Program-made: the position numbers and the translations under genes | In this document: positions 4,162-36,520 of the stretch, piece by piece | Position numbering within the stretch: position 1 is the first letter of the stretch | Layout: every line of letters begins with the position of its first letter | The notes under the pieces: model-generated | What the model saw: the letters and a program-made list of their open reading frames with translations, nothing else | The model's database searches: none | What the model was told of the DNA's origin: nothing | Assembly (NCBI GenBank): GCA_030448025.1 | Contig: JAUJNQ010000005.1 | Span: 1-47,596, forward strand | DNA: 47,596 nucleotides | Direction: 5' to 3' | Source: Acidimicrobiales bacterium | GTDB lineage: Bacteria > Actinomycetota > Acidimicrobiia > Acidimicrobiales > GCA-2861595

Positions 4162-6549
4162 TCAGGAAGAGCGGCTCACGTCGACCCGCATGCGGCGATC
4201 GGCCACCAGCTCCAAGCGTTGCGCGCCTCTGTCCCTGTCCGAGGGCCGGCCGTCGGCCCTCCAACCCTGCGGTAGCTGCACTGAGGTCGTGTAGGCGTCG
4301 GGAGCCAAGAAGGGCTGGCGATGGAGGTCGAGACGGTACCTGTCGCCGCGGCCCTCCCGGCGCTGAACCCGGCCTCTCAGGTCCAGCTCGATGGTCGAGG
4401 AGCCACCAGGGGGGATCACGACGTAGGTGGAGTACACATGGCGGTCCCGCTCCCGCTCCGACTCGAGCCCCGCAGGTCGGCCGTCGACCCGGGCCCCGGT
4501 GAGGGCCAACGGGCTGTACACCGACAGGTAGAGCTTGTTGGCGCCTTTCGGTATCGGCGGTCTGGTGTCGCTGCCGATGACGTAATCGGGCAGTCCGCTG
4601 CTGGGCGCCATGTTCTGGAGTGAGATTCGCACCGTGGAGCGGACCTCACCCGAAGCGGGGTCGAACCGGGCCCGGTAGTCCACAGCACGCCGCAGGAACC
4701 AGTCGATCTTGTTGGCGCTGGCGTTTTGGGTGACCACTCCGAGGAAGTCCCCCTGCACCGGCGCCATGGCTCCCGCCACCCCCAGGCGTTCGAGCGCCCC
4801 TTCCTCGCCCGGATTGGTGCTGGCCACCTGGATGTGCTTCTCGGCGATGACCGGGCTGAGGGCCTGGGCCAGCTCGGCAACACCAGGGGTGGAGGTGGTG
4901 AGGCGCTGCCACACGGCATCGGTGACCCGGGCCAGGAAGTCCACCCGAGCGTCGCCTTGGAGTCTCACGTACTGGTCGAACAGGAGCACCTGGGCGGCAT
5001 TGTCGGCGGTGATGGGCACCGGCCATTCCTTCACCTGCACCGGCCCGACCACCTTCAACAGGGCGGCCAGGCCGATGGGGTCGACGGCAATCACTCCGTC
5101 CACGGGCCGGCCCCCCGACTGGGGGTAGAGACTGGCGATGGCCTGGGCCACGCTCGGGAAGTCGGGGGACATGGTGATGTTCTGCCAGCTGAGCTCGGGG
5201 TCGAAGCGGGCGTAGCGGGCCGTGTAATCGGGAGGGGCGGCGAGCCGGCGAGCCTTCGGGTTCCCCCCGGTGTTCAGATCCACCGTCCTACCCAACCGAT
5301 CCAGGCTGAGGCGACCTCGATCGGCGCTGATCTCGCCGAAGTTGCCGATGAAACCCCCGCTGCCGCGCGCCTCGGCGGGGGTCTGAAGGGCGAGGAAGTA
5401 GCGGCGGGGGCGATCGGCCCCGAGGAGCGCCGGCGCCACCTCGGAAGCGACGGTGGCCACCTCCACGTCGCGCTGCGCCTGGCTCACCCGCCCCGAAAGG
5501 GTGTCGAGGCGGCGGGCCACGGGCGGGACCAGCCACGGTGAGTGCATCTCGTCGAGGCGGGCATCGGCCTCGGTGAGGGAGGACAGTGCCTGCCGGGCGG
5601 GGGCCTGGAGCGAGATGATCCGCTCCAACGGCACCGTCCCGTTGGCCAACTGGAGGGGCGTGGCCTGGGCTTGGTTGGCGGCACGAGCCCCCGCCGCGCT
5701 CAACGCCGAGCCCGACTCGGCCATGGCCAGCAGCGCCCGGCTGTGGCGTGCCACCACCGGTACTGCCATGGCAGGGCGAGCCCACCAGGCGCCCAGGTGG
5801 GCCGACGCGGCGGCGAAGGACTCGGCCCCTTCGTCGAAGCGGGCCCCAGAGCCGGCCGTGTCACCGGCCCGGGCACCACTCACTGCCGAGGTGGCGGCAG
5901 CGATGCCCTTCTCGACGTGGGGACGGGCCAAGAGCACGGACAGGGCCCCGATGGCGCTGCCCACGGCGGCCACACCGGCCACCGCCAGCGCCATTCGGAT
6001 CGACCGGCGGCGGGCGGGCTTGCGCAGCCCGGTGACGCCCCCCGCAGCGAGGAGAGCGAACACCGCCATGGCCACCATTGCCGTGCCCAAGGCGACGCTG
6101 GGTCGATCCAGGCGCAGCGCGGCCTGGCTGGTGAAGCCGGCGGCCAGGGCCCGCAAGAGGGGAGCGTTGAGCCGGGCCGAGGCCGCCCCGAGGGCCAGGC
6201 CGAAGCCGGCCCCGGCCAACCACACCGAGGAGGGCCCGGCCGCCACCAGAGCCAGGGCTGCTGCTGCGACCACCAACCAGCGGCTGAGCTGGCGCTGACG
6301 GCGAGACCGGGACCCGTTGGCCGACACCAGGGCCACGGAGCCCCCGCAGAGGAGGGCCCGGAACACGGCGTCGAGGCCGGCGATGCCCGTCGCGGCAGGT
6401 TCGGAGACGATGCCACCGAAGGCGGCCATTCCCACCAGCACGGCCACCAGGCCACCGGCGCGAAGAACCGCTCGGGGGACGTAGAGGCCGCCCATGCCGG
6501 AGAAGGCGAGCCCCGCGGCGGTGGCTACGAAACCAGAGAGGACCAGAAT
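4162..6549 (-). CDS. DUF4012 membrane-anchored protein, apparent ATT start
   Basis: About 795 residues. The N-terminal third has several hydrophobic helices, then one at about residues 187-208. The long extracellular part carries the DUF4012 region (RYFLALQTPAEARGSGGFIGN near residue 380, and DGVIAVDPIGLAALLKVVGPV near 475). In other bacteria DUF4012 proteins sit in exopolysaccharide or surface-glycan loci; the biochemical role is unknown. The first ATG is at 6495, but the frame continues upstream for 18 more residues, mostly hydrophobic, to ATT at 6549. TAAGGT lies exactly 6 bases before that ATT, with an in-frame TAA beyond it. I therefore place the start at ATT. If translation begins at 6495, the first membrane helix is lost. 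Confidence 0.75.
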   Translation of the reverse strand: MLVLSGFVATAAGLAFSGMGGLYVPRAVLRAGGLVAVLVGMAAFGGIVSEPAATGIAGLDAVFRALLCGGSVALVSANGSRSRRQRQLSRWLVVAAAALALVAAGPSSVWLAGAGFGLALGAASARLNAPLLRALAAGFTSQAALRLDRPSVALGTAMVAMAVFALLAAGGVTGLRKPARRRSIRMALAVAGVAAVGSAIGALSVLLARPHVEKGIAAATSAVSGARAGDTAGSGARFDEGAESFAAASAHLGAWWARPAMAVPVVARHSRALLAMAESGSALSAAGARAANQAQATPLQLANGTVPLERIISLQAPARQALSSLTEADARLDEMHSPWLVPPVARRLDTLSGRVSQAQRDVEVATVASEVAPALLGADRPRRYFLALQTPAEARGSGGFIGNFGEISADRGRLSLDRLGRTVDLNTGGNPKARRLAAPPDYTARYARFDPELSWQNITMSPDFPSVAQAIASLYPQSGGRPVDGVIAVDPIGLAALLKVVGPVQVKEWPVPITADNAAQVLLFDQYVRLQGDARVDFLARVTDAVWQRLTTSTPGVAELAQALSPVIAEKHIQVASTNPGEEGALERLGVAGAMAPVQGDFLGVVTQNASANKIDWFLRRAVDYRARFDPASGEVRSTVRISLQNMAPSSGLPDYVIGSDTRPPIPKGANKLYLSVYSPLALTGARVDGRPAGLESERERDRHVYSTYVVIPPGGSSTIELDLRGRVQRREGRGDRYRLDLHRQPFLAPDAYTTSVQLPQGWRADGRPSDRDRGAQRLELVADRRMRVDVSRSS

Positions 6550-31732: not shown

Positions 31733-32188
31733 CTGCTGGGCCGGTAGTTGGCCTCGCCGAGCTGGGCCATGAGGCCGATCTGGGCCTCCAGCCAGTCGGC
31801 GTGTTCCTCCTCACCTCGGAGGATCGCCTGCAACACGTCCCGACTCCCGTGTCGCTGTGTTCCACGCAGGTGGAGATGCCCGGTTCAGCCGCTCCACGGC
31901 CGCCACCTCGAGGCCGAGGGCGGCGGTGAGCTTCTCCCCCACCGTCTGGCCGACGGCCACGGTGCCGAGACGCTGGAGGTTGGGCATGCCCTCGAGGTAG
32001 AGGATGCGGTCCACGAGGGCCTCGGCGTCTCGCATCTCGTCGATCGAGTCCTCACGGAACCTCTGGGCCAGCCGCTCGTATCCCCAGCTCTGGCACATCG
32101 TGGCGTCCACGAAGTACTGCTTGAGGGCCGTCAGCTCGGCCGGTGAGCACTGGTTGAGCTACTCGACGACCTGGGCGTCTCCCTGCAT
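31721..32188 (-). pseudogene. bfr: Bacterioferritin gene with four lesions
   Basis: Reading across frames gives a full bacterioferritin: MQGDAQVVE-stop-LNQCSPAEL, CQSWGYERLAQRFREDSIDEM with ferroxidase-type E and YERL positions, [20 protein letters not shown] and a C-terminal RAQQLRA. Lesions are a TAG at codon 10 (32159-32161, probably from TAC) and three single-G losses, near 31881, 31845 and 31741. All three deletions fall in G runs, so assembly error is possible; the TAG is not of that type. The gene starts two bases after bfd and would be its operon partner. Confidence 0.8.
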
Positions 32189-32487: not shown

Positions 32488-32522
32488 GATCAGGGGGAGA
32501 GGACTGATCAGGGGGAGAGGAC
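32488..32522. repeat. Tandem 18-base duplication over the rsfS stop
   Basis: GATCAGGGGGAGAGGACT at 32488-32505 is repeated at 32506-32522 with the last base different. The stop codon of rsfS (32508-32510, minus strand) lies in the right copy, so the duplication probably altered or restored the end of the protein. Confidence 0.8.
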
Positions 32523-33044
32523 AGGACGAGCCTGGGCCCCGGCGTCCTGGGCGGCCCCGACGGCCCCGGCGTCGGCTTGTTGTCCGGCTTCGTGCTCGGC
32601 TTGGTGTCGGGCTGCGTGCTCAGCTTGGTGCTCGGATTCGTCCACCCACTCGACGGTGGGGGCATCGGACCAGAGGCGCTCGATGTCGTAGTACCGGCGT
32701 ACCTCGTCGAGGAACACGTGGACCACGAAGTCGCCGTAGTCGAGCAGCACCCAGCGGGCGTCGTCGAGGCCCTCGGTCCGGAGGGGCTTGACCCCGGCGA
32801 ACTGGGCCAGGCGGGCCTCGACCTCCTCGGCGATGGTGCGGACCTGGCGGGCGTTGGCGGCGCTGGTGATGACGAAATAGTCGGTGATGGCCAGCACGGC
32901 ACCGACCTCGAGCACCACCGTGTCCACGCCCACCTTGGCCGCCGCGGCCCGAGCCGCAACCACCGCCCGGTTCCGGACCTCGCCGAGGCCGATGCTGCTC
33001 ACGCCCTTTGTCACGCCCCCCTCGCTCTCGTCTTCGACAGTCAC
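32508..33044 (-). CDS. rsfS: Ribosomal silencing factor RsfS with extended C-terminus
   Basis: A 178-residue protein of which about residues 20-130 are the RsfS/Iojap domain: VDTVVLEVGAVLAITDYFVITSA, ARQVRTIAEEVEARL and LDYGDFVVHVFLDEVRRYYDIERLW. It binds ribosomal protein uL14 and blocks subunit joining under starvation. Beyond the domain lies a low-complexity tail rich in EHQAEH and Gln/Ala units, about 45 residues longer than usual. The start is GTG 33044 or the later in-frame GTG before TKGVSS. Third gene after nadD and the LCP gene. Confidence 0.9.
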   Translation of the reverse strand: MTVEDESEGGVTKGVSSIGLGEVRNRAVVAARAAAAKVGVDTVVLEVGAVLAITDYFVITSAANARQVRTIAEEVEARLAQFAGVKPLRTEGLDDARWVLLDYGDFVVHVFLDEVRRYYDIERLWSDAPTVEWVDESEHQAEHAARHQAEHEAGQQADAGAVGAAQDAGAQARPVLSP

Positions 33045-33061: not shown

Positions 33062-34513
33062 TCAGGGACGGAAATCCTTTCCGACGATCACGGTGACGTC
33101 CACTACGTCGAGCGGACGGCGGCTGAGCACCAATGCTCCCACGCCCAGCGCCTGTCGAAGACGATCAGCCACCGCTTCCTGGTCGCGGTCGTAGAAGACG
33201 ATCTCTGTGCGCTCGTACTCGAAGTTGGCGGCGTTGCCGGTGAGACGGACGTCGAAGCCCGCACCGAGCTTGGCCCGTACGGTGTCGGCCACCTCCAGGG
33301 CCCCCGTCCCGTTGAGCACCTGCACGCGCGGCCGCCCTGCGAGCCCTTGGCCGGTGGACGTGGGGAACACGTCGGCCACGAGGCGCGAGAGCTCGTCGCT
33401 GCGCACCTTGTACAGCTCCCCACCGTCGCCGGCCGTGCCGAAGGCCTCCACCGGGAGGAGGCGGGTTTGCACCGGGCCGGAGGCCAGGGCCGCGATGGCG
33501 GCGCTGAGCTCGGTCGATCGGGTGGGGACGGCCGCTGGCTGGGCGCCGAGCCGGGTCAACCACGCCTCCCAGAAAGCCTGGTGACGGGCCAGGCGGGCCA
33601 GGTCGCTCTCCCGGCCCTTGACCGAGAGGAAGCGACCGGCGCCGGCGGGCGCCAGGGTGCCGGCACCGGCTTCGTAGAGCACCTCGACCCGGCCGTTCGG
33701 GCTCACCCGCTCGACCCGCTCGGGCACGGTCACGGGGAAAGGTCCGACCGGAGCCAGCAGACCGGCCAAGCCGGCGTCGTCCACGGCGACCACGCCGCCC
33801 AGGGGTGCCCCGAGGAGGTTCTCCACTGTGGCCCGCAGGCGGGTCGGCCCACCCAGCTCGAGAGACTGGCGCACGGGCTCGAGACCGAGCGAGACGACTT
33901 CGGCCATGGTGCCCGGGGGGACCAGCACCAAGGTCCCGCCCTTCCCGCCCGCCGCCGGGACCAGCACGGTGAGCGAAGAGGCCCGTCCGGAGGCGTCCTG
34001 GTAGGCCACGAGCACCGGAGCCACGGTGGGGGCAGGCGGCGGCGCCCCCTGGGCCACCCCGGTGCGAGCCCCTTCGCGGCTCCCGGCATCGCCGCTCCCA
34101 GCGTCACGGCTCAGAGCGTCACGGCTCAGAGCGTCACGGCTCAGAGCGCCGCGTCCGACGAGGCGGCCCACGGGGGCGGCGAGCCCCGCCATCAGGGCGC
34201 TCACCACGGCGACAACCGCGAGGACGAGGGCGCCCCGGCTGATCCGCTTACGCCGGCGCCTCCGGAGCTCCTTGCGGCGCCGGCGAATCCTCCCGTTCAA
34301 GGCAACATCGGGGAGAGGGATCGGATCCAGCTCGTTCCGACCGGACGCTGAGTCCGGCTGCTGGTCGTTCGACGGGTCGTAGGCCGGGAAGATCGTGGCT
34401 GGCGGGTGCGACTGAGCGTTGCCCGACTGAGCGTTGCCCGACTCGGCCTCGTCCGGCTCGGCTTCGTCCGGCTCGGGGGGGGTGGCGGGAGCGAAGCCCG
34501 GGGACGCGCTCAA
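33062..34513 (-). CDS. LCP / LytR_C-domain envelope protein
   Basis: A 483-residue membrane protein: a polar N-terminal tail with repeats (EPDEAEPDEAE, SGNAQSGNAQS), a basic stretch, one membrane helix (about 93-113), an ALSRD pentapeptide repeat, a divergent LytR-CpsA-Psr-like domain (GTLVLVPPGTMAEV to SDLARLARHQAFWEAWL) and a LytR_C domain (RVQVLNGTGALEVADTVRAKL). LCP proteins attach glycans to peptidoglycan; here conserved arginines of the LCP site are not obvious, so activity is uncertain. It starts at TTG 34513, three bases after nadD. The nadD-LCP-rsfS order is common in actinobacteria. Confidence 0.8.
   Translation of the reverse strand: MSASPGFAPATPPEPDEAEPDEAESGNAQSGNAQSHPPATIFPAYDPSNDQQPDSASGRNELDPIPLPDVALNGRIRRRRKELRRRRRKRISRGALVLAVVAVVSALMAGLAAPVGRLVGRGALSRDALSRDALSRDAGSGDAGSREGARTGVAQGAPPPAPTVAPVLVAYQDASGRASSLTVLVPAAGGKGGTLVLVPPGTMAEVVSLGLEPVRQSLELGGPTRLRATVENLLGAPLGGVVAVDDAGLAGLLAPVGPFPVTVPERVERVSPNGRVEVLYEAGAGTLAPAGAGRFLSVKGRESDLARLARHQAFWEAWLTRLGAQPAAVPTRSTELSAAIAALASGPVQTRLLPVEAFGTAGDGGELYKVRSDELSRLVADVFPTSTGQGLAGRPRVQVLNGTGALEVADTVRAKLGAGFDVRLTGNAANFEYERTEIVFYDRDQEAVADRLRQALGVGALVLSRRPLDVVDVTVIVGKDFRP
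34101..34145. repeat. Three tandem 15-base units inside the LCP gene
   Basis: GCGTCACGGCTCAGA at 34101-34115, 34116-34130 and 34131-34145, exact. Read in frame this gives repeated ALSRD just outside the membrane helix. A two-unit 15-base repeat also encodes EPDEA near 34450-34480. These are likely length-variable linkers. Confidence 0.85.
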
Positions 34514-34516
34514 TCT

Positions 34517-35101
34517 TCAGCCAGCGTACAGACCGAGCCGACGGATCTCACGTACCGCACCTGCGGGCACCAGCACGTCGATGGGGCGCCCGGCGGCCAC
34601 ACGGGCTCTGAGGTCGGTGCTCGACACGTCGAGGGCGGGCACCTCGACCACCTCCATCCGCCAGGACGGGGGAGGTGGGCTCACGTTGACGCCGGGGCGG
34701 GCTACGGCGACGAGCGTGGCCCGGCGTCCGACTTCGTCCGCCCGCTCCCAGGTGGGCAGCTCACCCACCACGTCGGAGCCGACCACGAGGAACAGCTCGG
34801 CACCGGGGTGGCGAGCTGCCAGCTCGGTCAGAGTGTCAGCGGTGTAGGACGGTCCGCCCCGGTCTATCTCCAGCCGGCTGGCCTCGATGCCCTCCAGGCC
34901 CTCGGCGGCGGCTCGCACCACGGAGTAGCGGTCCTCGGCATCGGTCACCGATCGCTCTCCGGCCTTCTGCCACGGGATGTTGGCCACGACCAGAAGGACG
35001 CTCCGGAGGCCGAGAGCGTGGCGGACGTTGACCGCAGCGGCCAGATGTCCTACGTGCACCGGATCGAAGGTGCCCCCGAAGACCCCGATGCGCTCGCCGA
35101 T
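34517..35101 (-). CDS. nadD: Nicotinate-nucleotide adenylyltransferase, apparent ATC start
   Basis: A 194-residue enzyme making deamido-NAD from nicotinate mononucleotide and ATP. The nucleotide-binding start IGVFGGTFDPVHVGHLAAAV has the HxGH motif; a C-terminal SSTDLRARVAAG corresponds to ISSTxIR. The first standard start codon (GTG 35059) would delete GGTFDP. The frame continues upstream to an in-frame TAG at 35112-35110 with no ATG, GTG or TTG. ATC at 35101 lies exactly six bases after TAGAGT and gives IGERIGVFGGTFDP, the expected N-terminus. I therefore place the start at ATC. Confidence 0.85.
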   Translation of the reverse strand: MGERIGVFGGTFDPVHVGHLAAAVNVRHALGLRSVLLVVANIPWQKAGERSVTDAEDRYSVVRAAAEGLEGIEASRLEIDRGGPSYTADTLTELAARHPGAELFLVVGSDVVGELPTWERADEVGRRATLVAVARPGVNVSPPPPSWRMEVVEVPALDVSSTDLRARVAAGRPIDVLVPAGAVREIRRLGLYAG

Positions 35102-35113
35102 CCCGGGACTCTA
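35102..35113 (-). promoter_or_regulatory. Leaderless -10 element in front of an ATC start (nadD)
   Basis: TAGAGT (35113-35108, minus strand) plus six bases leads to ATC GGC GAG CGC ATC GGG GTC. The layout is the same as before the ATT-start gene at 6549. The hexamer also holds the in-frame TAG, so no longer N-terminus is possible. Confidence 0.5.
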
Positions 35114-35188
35114 CGGCTCGGCCTGCCTGGGCGCCCGCCCGCTACCGGTGTTCCTGCCCGGCGCGGTCACTCCCCTACGCTGGAGGCC

Positions 35189-36520
35189 GTGAGGGAGTGG
35201 ACACCGAGATCCTGGCGCGAGCGGCCGGCCGACCAGCAACCGGACTGGCCGGACGAAGCGATCCTCGAGCAGGCACTGAAGCACCTCTCGACGCTGCCCC
35301 CGCTGGTCTTCGCCGGGGAGGCCCGCCAGCTCACTTCCAGCCTGGCCGAGGTGGCCGAGGGCCGAGCCTTCATGCTCCAGGCGGGCGACTGCGCCGAGTC
35401 CTTCGACGACTTCACCGCCGACGCCATCCGGGACAAGCTCAAGGTCATCCTCCAGATGGCGGTGGTGCTCACCTACGGCTCGGGCGTGCCGGTCGTGAAG
35501 GTGGGCCGCATCGCCGGGCAGTTCGCCAAGCCCCGATCGTCGCCCACCGAGCGGATCGGTGACGAGGACTTCCCGTCCTTCCGCGGCCACAGCGTGAACG
35601 ACCTCATGGCGACTGCCTCGGCCCGAGCGGCCAACCCGGAGCGGCTCCTCGCCGCCTACCACCAGTCGGCGTCCACGCTGAACCTGCTGCGGGCCTTCGC
35701 CAAGGGGGGCTTCGCCGACCTGCGCCAGGTCCATACCTGGAACCAGGAGTTCGTGGCCACGAGCGCCGAGGGCCGGCGCTACGAGGCCATCGCGTCCGAG
35801 ATCGAGCGCGCCCTGCGCTTCATGAAGGCGTGCGGCATCGACGTGGAGACGGCCGCCCTTCACCAGGTGGACTTCTACACCTCCCACGAGGCGCTGCTCC
35901 TCGGTTACGAGGAGGCCCTCACCCGTCAGGACTCCCTCACCGGCGCCTGGTACGACTGCTCGGCCCACATGCTCTGGGTCGGCGAGCGCACCCGGGCCGT
36001 CGACCGCGCTCACGTGGAGTTCCTGTCCGGGGTCGGGAACCCCCTCGGGATGAAGCTGGGGCCGGCGGCAGTGCCCGACGACGTGGTGGCCGTCTGCGAT
36101 CGTCTCGACCCACAGCACACGCCCGGGCGGCTCACCCTCATCTCCCGCATGGGATCGGCTCGGGTGACCGACGCGCTGCCTCCCCTTATCCGCGCCGTGC
36201 GCGACTCCGGTCATCCGGTGGCGTGGGTTTGCGACCCGATGCACGGCAACACCTTCACCAGCCCGTCCGGACGAAAGACCCGTCACCTGGACGACGTCCT
36301 GAGCGAGATCGAGACGTTCTTTTCAGTGTGCCGGTCCGAGGGTGCATGGCCCGGCGGCGTGCACGTGGAGCTCACCGGCGACAACGTCACCGAGTGCCTG
36401 GGTGGCTCGGAGGAGATCCTGGACCTCGACGTGCGCTACACCACCACGTGTGACCCACGGCTCAACGCCCGCCAGTCCATCGACCTGGCCTTCCGGGTGG
36501 CGGAGCTGCTCCGAGCCTGA
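35189..36520 (+). CDS. aroG: Class II DAHP synthase (shikimate pathway entry)
   Basis: A 443-residue enzyme condensing phosphoenolpyruvate and erythrose 4-phosphate. Class II marks: MLQAGDCAESFDDFTADAI (metal-binding Cys), VVKVGRIAGQFAKPRSSPTE, DCSAHMLWVGERTRAVDRAHVEF, and WVCDPMHGNTFTSPSGRKTR, VELTGDNVTECLGG and YTTTCDPRLNARQSI near the end. Start GTG 35189 has TACGCT seven bases upstream plus GGAGG; the much longer open frame upstream is nadD antisense. It is divergent from nadD and complete. Confidence 0.95.
   Translation: MREWTPRSWRERPADQQPDWPDEAILEQALKHLSTLPPLVFAGEARQLTSSLAEVAEGRAFMLQAGDCAESFDDFTADAIRDKLKVILQMAVVLTYGSGVPVVKVGRIAGQFAKPRSSPTERIGDEDFPSFRGHSVNDLMATASARAANPERLLAAYHQSASTLNLLRAFAKGGFADLRQVHTWNQEFVATSAEGRRYEAIASEIERALRFMKACGIDVETAALHQVDFYTSHEALLLGYEEALTRQDSLTGAWYDCSAHMLWVGERTRAVDRAHVEFLSGVGNPLGMKLGPAAVPDDVVAVCDRLDPQHTPGRLTLISRMGSARVTDALPPLIRAVRDSGHPVAWVCDPMHGNTFTSPSGRKTRHLDDVLSEIETFFSVCRSEGAWPGGVHVELTGDNVTECLGGSEEILDLDVRYTTTCDPRLNARQSIDLAFRVAELLRA

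Follow-up and report, generated by a model that had tools for sequence, protein, structure and literature searches.

Leaderless translation is well known, and AUC start codons are known on leadered mRNAs. Non-canonical AUU, AUC and AUA starts occur in infC, where they go with IF3 autoregulation, and leaderless mitochondrial mRNAs that start at AUU, AUC or AUA are known. In mycobacterial reporters, only ATG and GTG were active at the leaderless position, and ATC served as the presumed incompetent negative control (Shell et al. 2015; PMC4633059). In E. coli, leaderless mRNAs strongly require AUG, with GUG, UUG and CUG being much weaker, and IF3 affects initiation of both the leaderless and the non-canonical type (PMC9031893). 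Searches of the open-access literature yielded no description of a bacterial mRNA with a leaderless AUC start. Here we report that nadD, an essential gene for making NAD, lacks a canonical start codon in a genome of the little-studied actinobacterial class Acidimicrobiia, and that its likely start is an ATC codon placed as in a leaderless gene. The gene is encoded on the minus strand of the window, i.e. the whole stretch of 47,596 nucleotides that was analysed, with the following features:

34517..35101, minus strand: nadD, nicotinate-nucleotide adenylyltransferase, 194 aa (NF000840; start slot kept in relatives, start of the same-genus relative identical)
35099..35101, minus strand: proposed nadD start codon ATC, aligned with the ATG, GTG or TTG of relatives, 6 bases after the -10-like box
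35102..35107, minus strand: six-base spacer CCCGGG, read from the sequence (the leaderless ATG/GTG spacing peaks at 6-7)
35108..35113, minus strand: TAGAGT, -10-like box (TANNNT), which contains the in-frame stop TAG and is also present in the same-genus relative
35087..35089, minus strand: second ATC, not accepted as the start; it encodes the conserved Ile within ERIG and is 18 bases away from the box

The product is NadD, with a score of 189.4 bits against the equivalog model NF000840 (cut-off 150), a match to Pfam PF01467, and the motif GGTFDPxHxGH. On the minus strand, the frame reads TAG AGT CCC GGG ATC GGC GAG CGC ATC GGG GTC TTC GGG GGC ACC TTC GAT CCG (IGERIGVFGGTFDPVHVGH), the part after GTC TTC continuing GGGGGCACCTTCGATCCG. 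The original prediction, made from the letters of the window, had placed the start at ATC 35101 (35101-35099), six bases past TAGAGT, and had noted a second ATC at 35089 (35089-35087); both codons and the distance are as described. Its in-frame TAG, given as 35112-35110, was off by one, the stop being at 35113-35111. Reading the frame on the minus strand also bore out its statement that no ATG, GTG or TTG lies between this stop and GGTFDP, and CTG is absent from the same interval. The earliest canonical codon in the frame is GTG 35059, within the active-site motif (MHVGH). The bases preceding the ATC are GTAGAGTCCCGGG and contain no Shine-Dalgarno-like sequence.

The leaderless anatomy of the genome was surveyed over 767 kb with 660 predicted genes (about 28% of the genome). 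A TANNNT box stands 6 (49 cases) or 7 (43 cases) bases before ATG or GTG, over a background of about 3 per position, and TTG was not encountered at these peak spacings behind the box. TAGAGT of nadD, at six bases, thus has the commonest spacing of leaderless ATG and GTG genes in this genome, which supports leaderless initiation as the reason that the original prediction had offered for the unusual codon; such initiation may have relaxed the choice of start codon at nadD. With leaderless genes of mycobacteria and other actinobacteria, the locus shares the probable lack of a leader, the missing Shine-Dalgarno site and a start a few bases past TANNNT, and in this genome, as in mycobacteria, the codons behind the box are mostly ATG or GTG, with no TTG at the peak spacing. 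The difference is a conserved ATC (also ATT, perhaps CTG) in the start position. A box 6-10 bases before the start (TAGAGT + 6 + ATC) and the missing Shine-Dalgarno site both agree with the known definition of a leaderless gene; among the features testable from sequence, the departure lies in the start codon, which instead of ATG or GTG is ATC, both for nadD in two genera and for a phosphatase gene throughout most of the order (see below). Behind a box at spacing 6, ATC, ATT or ATA was counted 5 times in the 767 kb, compared with about 2 per position, and from this small excess such genes should be few in this genome. Three further ATC candidates from the same screen were not taken as starts: C12:143880, where GTG follows directly, 133542 and 286577. 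A search for an altered initiator tRNA turned up an initiator-type tRNA of the ordinary kind, with anticodon CAU.

The upstream region was aligned with that of relatives, as the original prediction had suggested, and box, spacing and ATC proved to be kept in a second species of the same genus (TAGAGT GCCCGG ATC GGC GAG CGC ATC GGG ATC TTC). Box, spacing and the opening six codons of nadD are the same in the two species; the 45 bases above the box contain an indel and many differences, and third-position changes are numerous in the coding sequence below the start. ATC 35101 aligns with ATG, GTG and TTG starts of other relatives and is followed by the same G-E-R residues: among 162 nadD loci, the slot eight codons ahead of GGTFDP holds GTG in 16, ATG in 15, ATC in 5 and TTG in 3, with x-E/Q-R-I/L-G after it (e.g. 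ATG GGT GAG CGC ATC, TTG GGC GAG CGC ATC or GTG GGT GAG CGG ATC). Standard starts at another position were also sought; the closest relative has none, and relatives that use the slot begin exactly there. The genomes compared are mostly metagenome assemblies.

ATC also occupies the nadD slot in three species of a second genus from another family, preceded by TAGAAT + 7 or 8 bases or by TAATAC + 6; in one of these species, canonical GTG codons occur only at -24 and beyond. A canonical ATG, GTG or TTG is present at -4 to -40 in 153 of the 163 distinct nadD 5' regions and missing in 10, some of which reflect contig edges or CTG. ATC is therefore a minority state in nadD, which arose at least twice or was often lost. 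TANNNT precedes the canonical start by 5-10 bases in 88/162 nadD loci of the group. Four further pattern matches to an ATC nadD within the class have an in-frame ATG close by, so that the ATC is not the start. The nadD of locus L118 (G064) lacks a canonical start; a CTG stands at -6, shortly after the stop codon upstream.

On a leadered mRNA, ATC 35101 could be served by a promoter further up, and leadered AUC starts are real in this genome, where infC uses ATC behind the Shine-Dalgarno sequence AAGGAG. At nadD this is unlikely, since GTAGAGTCCCGGG offers no such site before the ATC and TAGAGT, which is conserved in the same-genus relative, stands at the distance typical of leaderless genes. 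Other near-cognate codons, namely ATC 35089 or GTC/ATC at 35083, would retain the GGTFDP motif, and some relatives have a GTG at the -2 position; however, these codons align with internal residues of the relatives that start at -8, lie at least 18 bases away from the box and come after conserved G-E-R residues, all of which makes a start there very unlikely. The second ATC (35089), at 18 bases from the box, coincides with the start of none of the relatives and is much less likely than ATC 35101.

A sequencing or assembly error that conceals a true ATG at 35101 would fit the probable metagenome origin of the assembly and the presence of an apparently broken bacterioferritin gene 3 kb from nadD. 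Such an error is nonetheless highly improbable, because the second species of the genus, which was assembled independently, has ATC at this place with substitutions around it, and because three species from another genus have ATC in the slot. Hardly any weight falls on readthrough of the TAG, or frameshifting, from an upstream start: an in-frame GTG (35168) is indeed available 19 codons above the TAG, but the segment above the box diverges strongly between the same-genus species, including an indel, while the sequence from TAGAGT onward does not, which speaks against readthrough and an upstream start alike. Moreover, the TAG belongs to the -10 box, and readthrough is required in none of the relatives.

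The preferred reading remains a leaderless start at ATC 35101. TAGAGT would be the -10 box of the nadD promoter, six bases before the ATC, and with initiation about 7 bases past the box, the transcript would begin at, or 1-2 bases from, the A of ATC, giving a messenger with neither leader nor Shine-Dalgarno site. On its 5'-terminal AUC, a 70S ribosome carrying the ordinary initiator tRNA (CAU) could then start by tolerating a C:C mismatch in the third position and would place fMet at residue 1 of NadD; the weak codon would probably keep expression low or sensitive to IF3. This proposal has 70S initiation and IF3 sensitivity in common with leaderless initiation in E. coli, which differs by its strong AUG requirement. 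Leaderless mitochondrial mRNAs can likewise initiate at 5'-terminal near-cognate codons of the Ile type, though with an organelle ribosome and a single tRNA-Met, whereas here a bacterial initiator tRNA with anticodon CAU would be used. At high G + C content, Ile is usually encoded by ATC, so that conservation of this codon alone would be weak evidence, and the argument for an ATC start is drawn from the missing canonical start together with the box.

The recurrence of ATC starts at other genes, above all at a low-molecular-weight protein tyrosine phosphatase (PF01451), lay beyond the view of the original prediction. The phosphatase was reached through a screen for genes lacking a canonical start, which also yielded as candidates fmt and the genes for a sigma factor, a flavin reductase and an exonuclease-like protein. 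It combines an intact C(X)5R loop with ATC in the start slot. In the five relatives of the family, no canonical start precedes the catalytic loop (5/5); the 5' end reads TAGACT + 6 or 7 + ATC in four species and TAGACT + 7 + CTG ATC in this genus. A slot pattern that admitted ATC, ATG, GTC and GTG alike was run on 298 Acidimicrobiales genomes and gave 45 matches, with ATC in 41, ATG in two, and GTG and GTC in one each, the lone GTC being a register shift with ATC one codon earlier. The ATC matches cover at least 17 families on the tree. Counting distinct 5' regions, ATC is in the slot of 40 out of 44; 36 of these 40 have TANNNT 6-8 bases before the ATC and two more at 10 bases (38 in total), and a canonical start is absent at -4 to -30 in 30 of the 40. 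In a subset collected by protein similarity, with no restriction on the codon, the slot holds ATC in 20/24, which means that the pattern did not cause the result. The same pattern gave only ATG or GTG outside the class (8/8; 296 genomes of the phylum), and the contrast in ATC inside versus outside the class has a Fisher P of 2e-7, a value that is too small because related species are not independent. One species within the class has GTG in the same slot behind TACACT + 6, which identifies the slot as a start slot. The phosphatase sequences of one family (f35) form a separate long branch on the tree, possibly a paralog or a second origin. At phosphatase locus L278 (G022), the in-frame ATG belongs to the -10 box TATGCT; an ATG inside such a box is likely to be a trap for gene callers.

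A further non-canonical start is proposed within the window:

4162..6549, minus strand: DUF4012 membrane protein gene, proposed leaderless ATT start at 6549-6547 (TAAGGT + 6 + ATT; end estimated from ORF length)

In the same-genus species (G001), the ortholog reads TAAGGT + 6 + ATG and its N-terminus is just as long; the present genome (G000) has ATT. The infC start is ATC in this family and ATA in the second genus (g32), in each case behind the Shine-Dalgarno sequence AAGGAG (L218 to L222), and such starts are therefore in use in these organisms. infC resembles nadD and the phosphatase in having AUC as a natural, conserved start codon and differs from them by its strong Shine-Dalgarno sequence, both of the latter having none and looking leaderless. 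The definition of an IF3-autoregulated, infC-type start accordingly fits infC itself and not nadD, which is another gene and has no Shine-Dalgarno site. In fmt (methionyl-tRNA formyltransferase), CTG is the only likely start in three relatives (L231, L232 and L233), and the corresponding slot is CTC in the present genome (G000:C9 near 69150).

For nadD, the canonical start is missing, the box, the spacing and the ATC are conserved, the slot is equivalent to the ATG, GTG or TTG of relatives, and ATC starts recur in other genes. Comparative evidence of this kind makes it likely that AUC can serve as a start codon of leaderless mRNAs in Acidimicrobiia and that nadD of this genome is one case. Its ATC is best read as one instance of a class-wide ability, the phosphatase apparently keeping a leaderless ATC through much of the order. 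With somewhat less assurance, we regard it as probable that 5'-terminal AUC is a genuine leaderless start in Acidimicrobiia that evolution has maintained, for the phosphatase throughout most of the order and, by independent recruitment, for nadD in two genera, perhaps in the service of low-level or IF3-responsive control. If true, leaderless AUC across at least 17 families would mean that the AUG/GUG-only rule of mycobacteria is bound to their lineage, and ortholog slots with ATG versus ATC or ATT would be natural pairs for studying how 70S ribosomes read a 5'-terminal codon. Annotation is affected as well: gene finders must misplace such starts, moving them to a later Met that lies past the phosphatase's catalytic loop or NadD's nucleotide-binding motif.

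The surroundings of nadD in the window comprise the following features:

35189..36520, plus strand: class II DAHP synthase gene, divergent, GTG start, leaderless-looking (PF01474, E 2e-202)
35176..35181, plus strand: TACGCT, 7 bases before GTG 35189, the -10-like box for this DAHP synthase gene
33062..34513, minus strand: LytR_C domain protein, downstream of nadD (PF13399)
32508..33044, minus strand: rsfS, ribosomal silencing factor (PF02410)

The bacterioferritin-like gene (Ferritin, PF00210) on the minus strand of the window (31823-32188) looks broken: an in-frame TAG (32161-32159) comes after ATG 32188, and the homology of the frame ends near 31880. Elsewhere in the genome, a type IV pilin-like gene on the minus strand (G000:C9 near 100035) has an N-terminal helix that is seemingly split over two frames.
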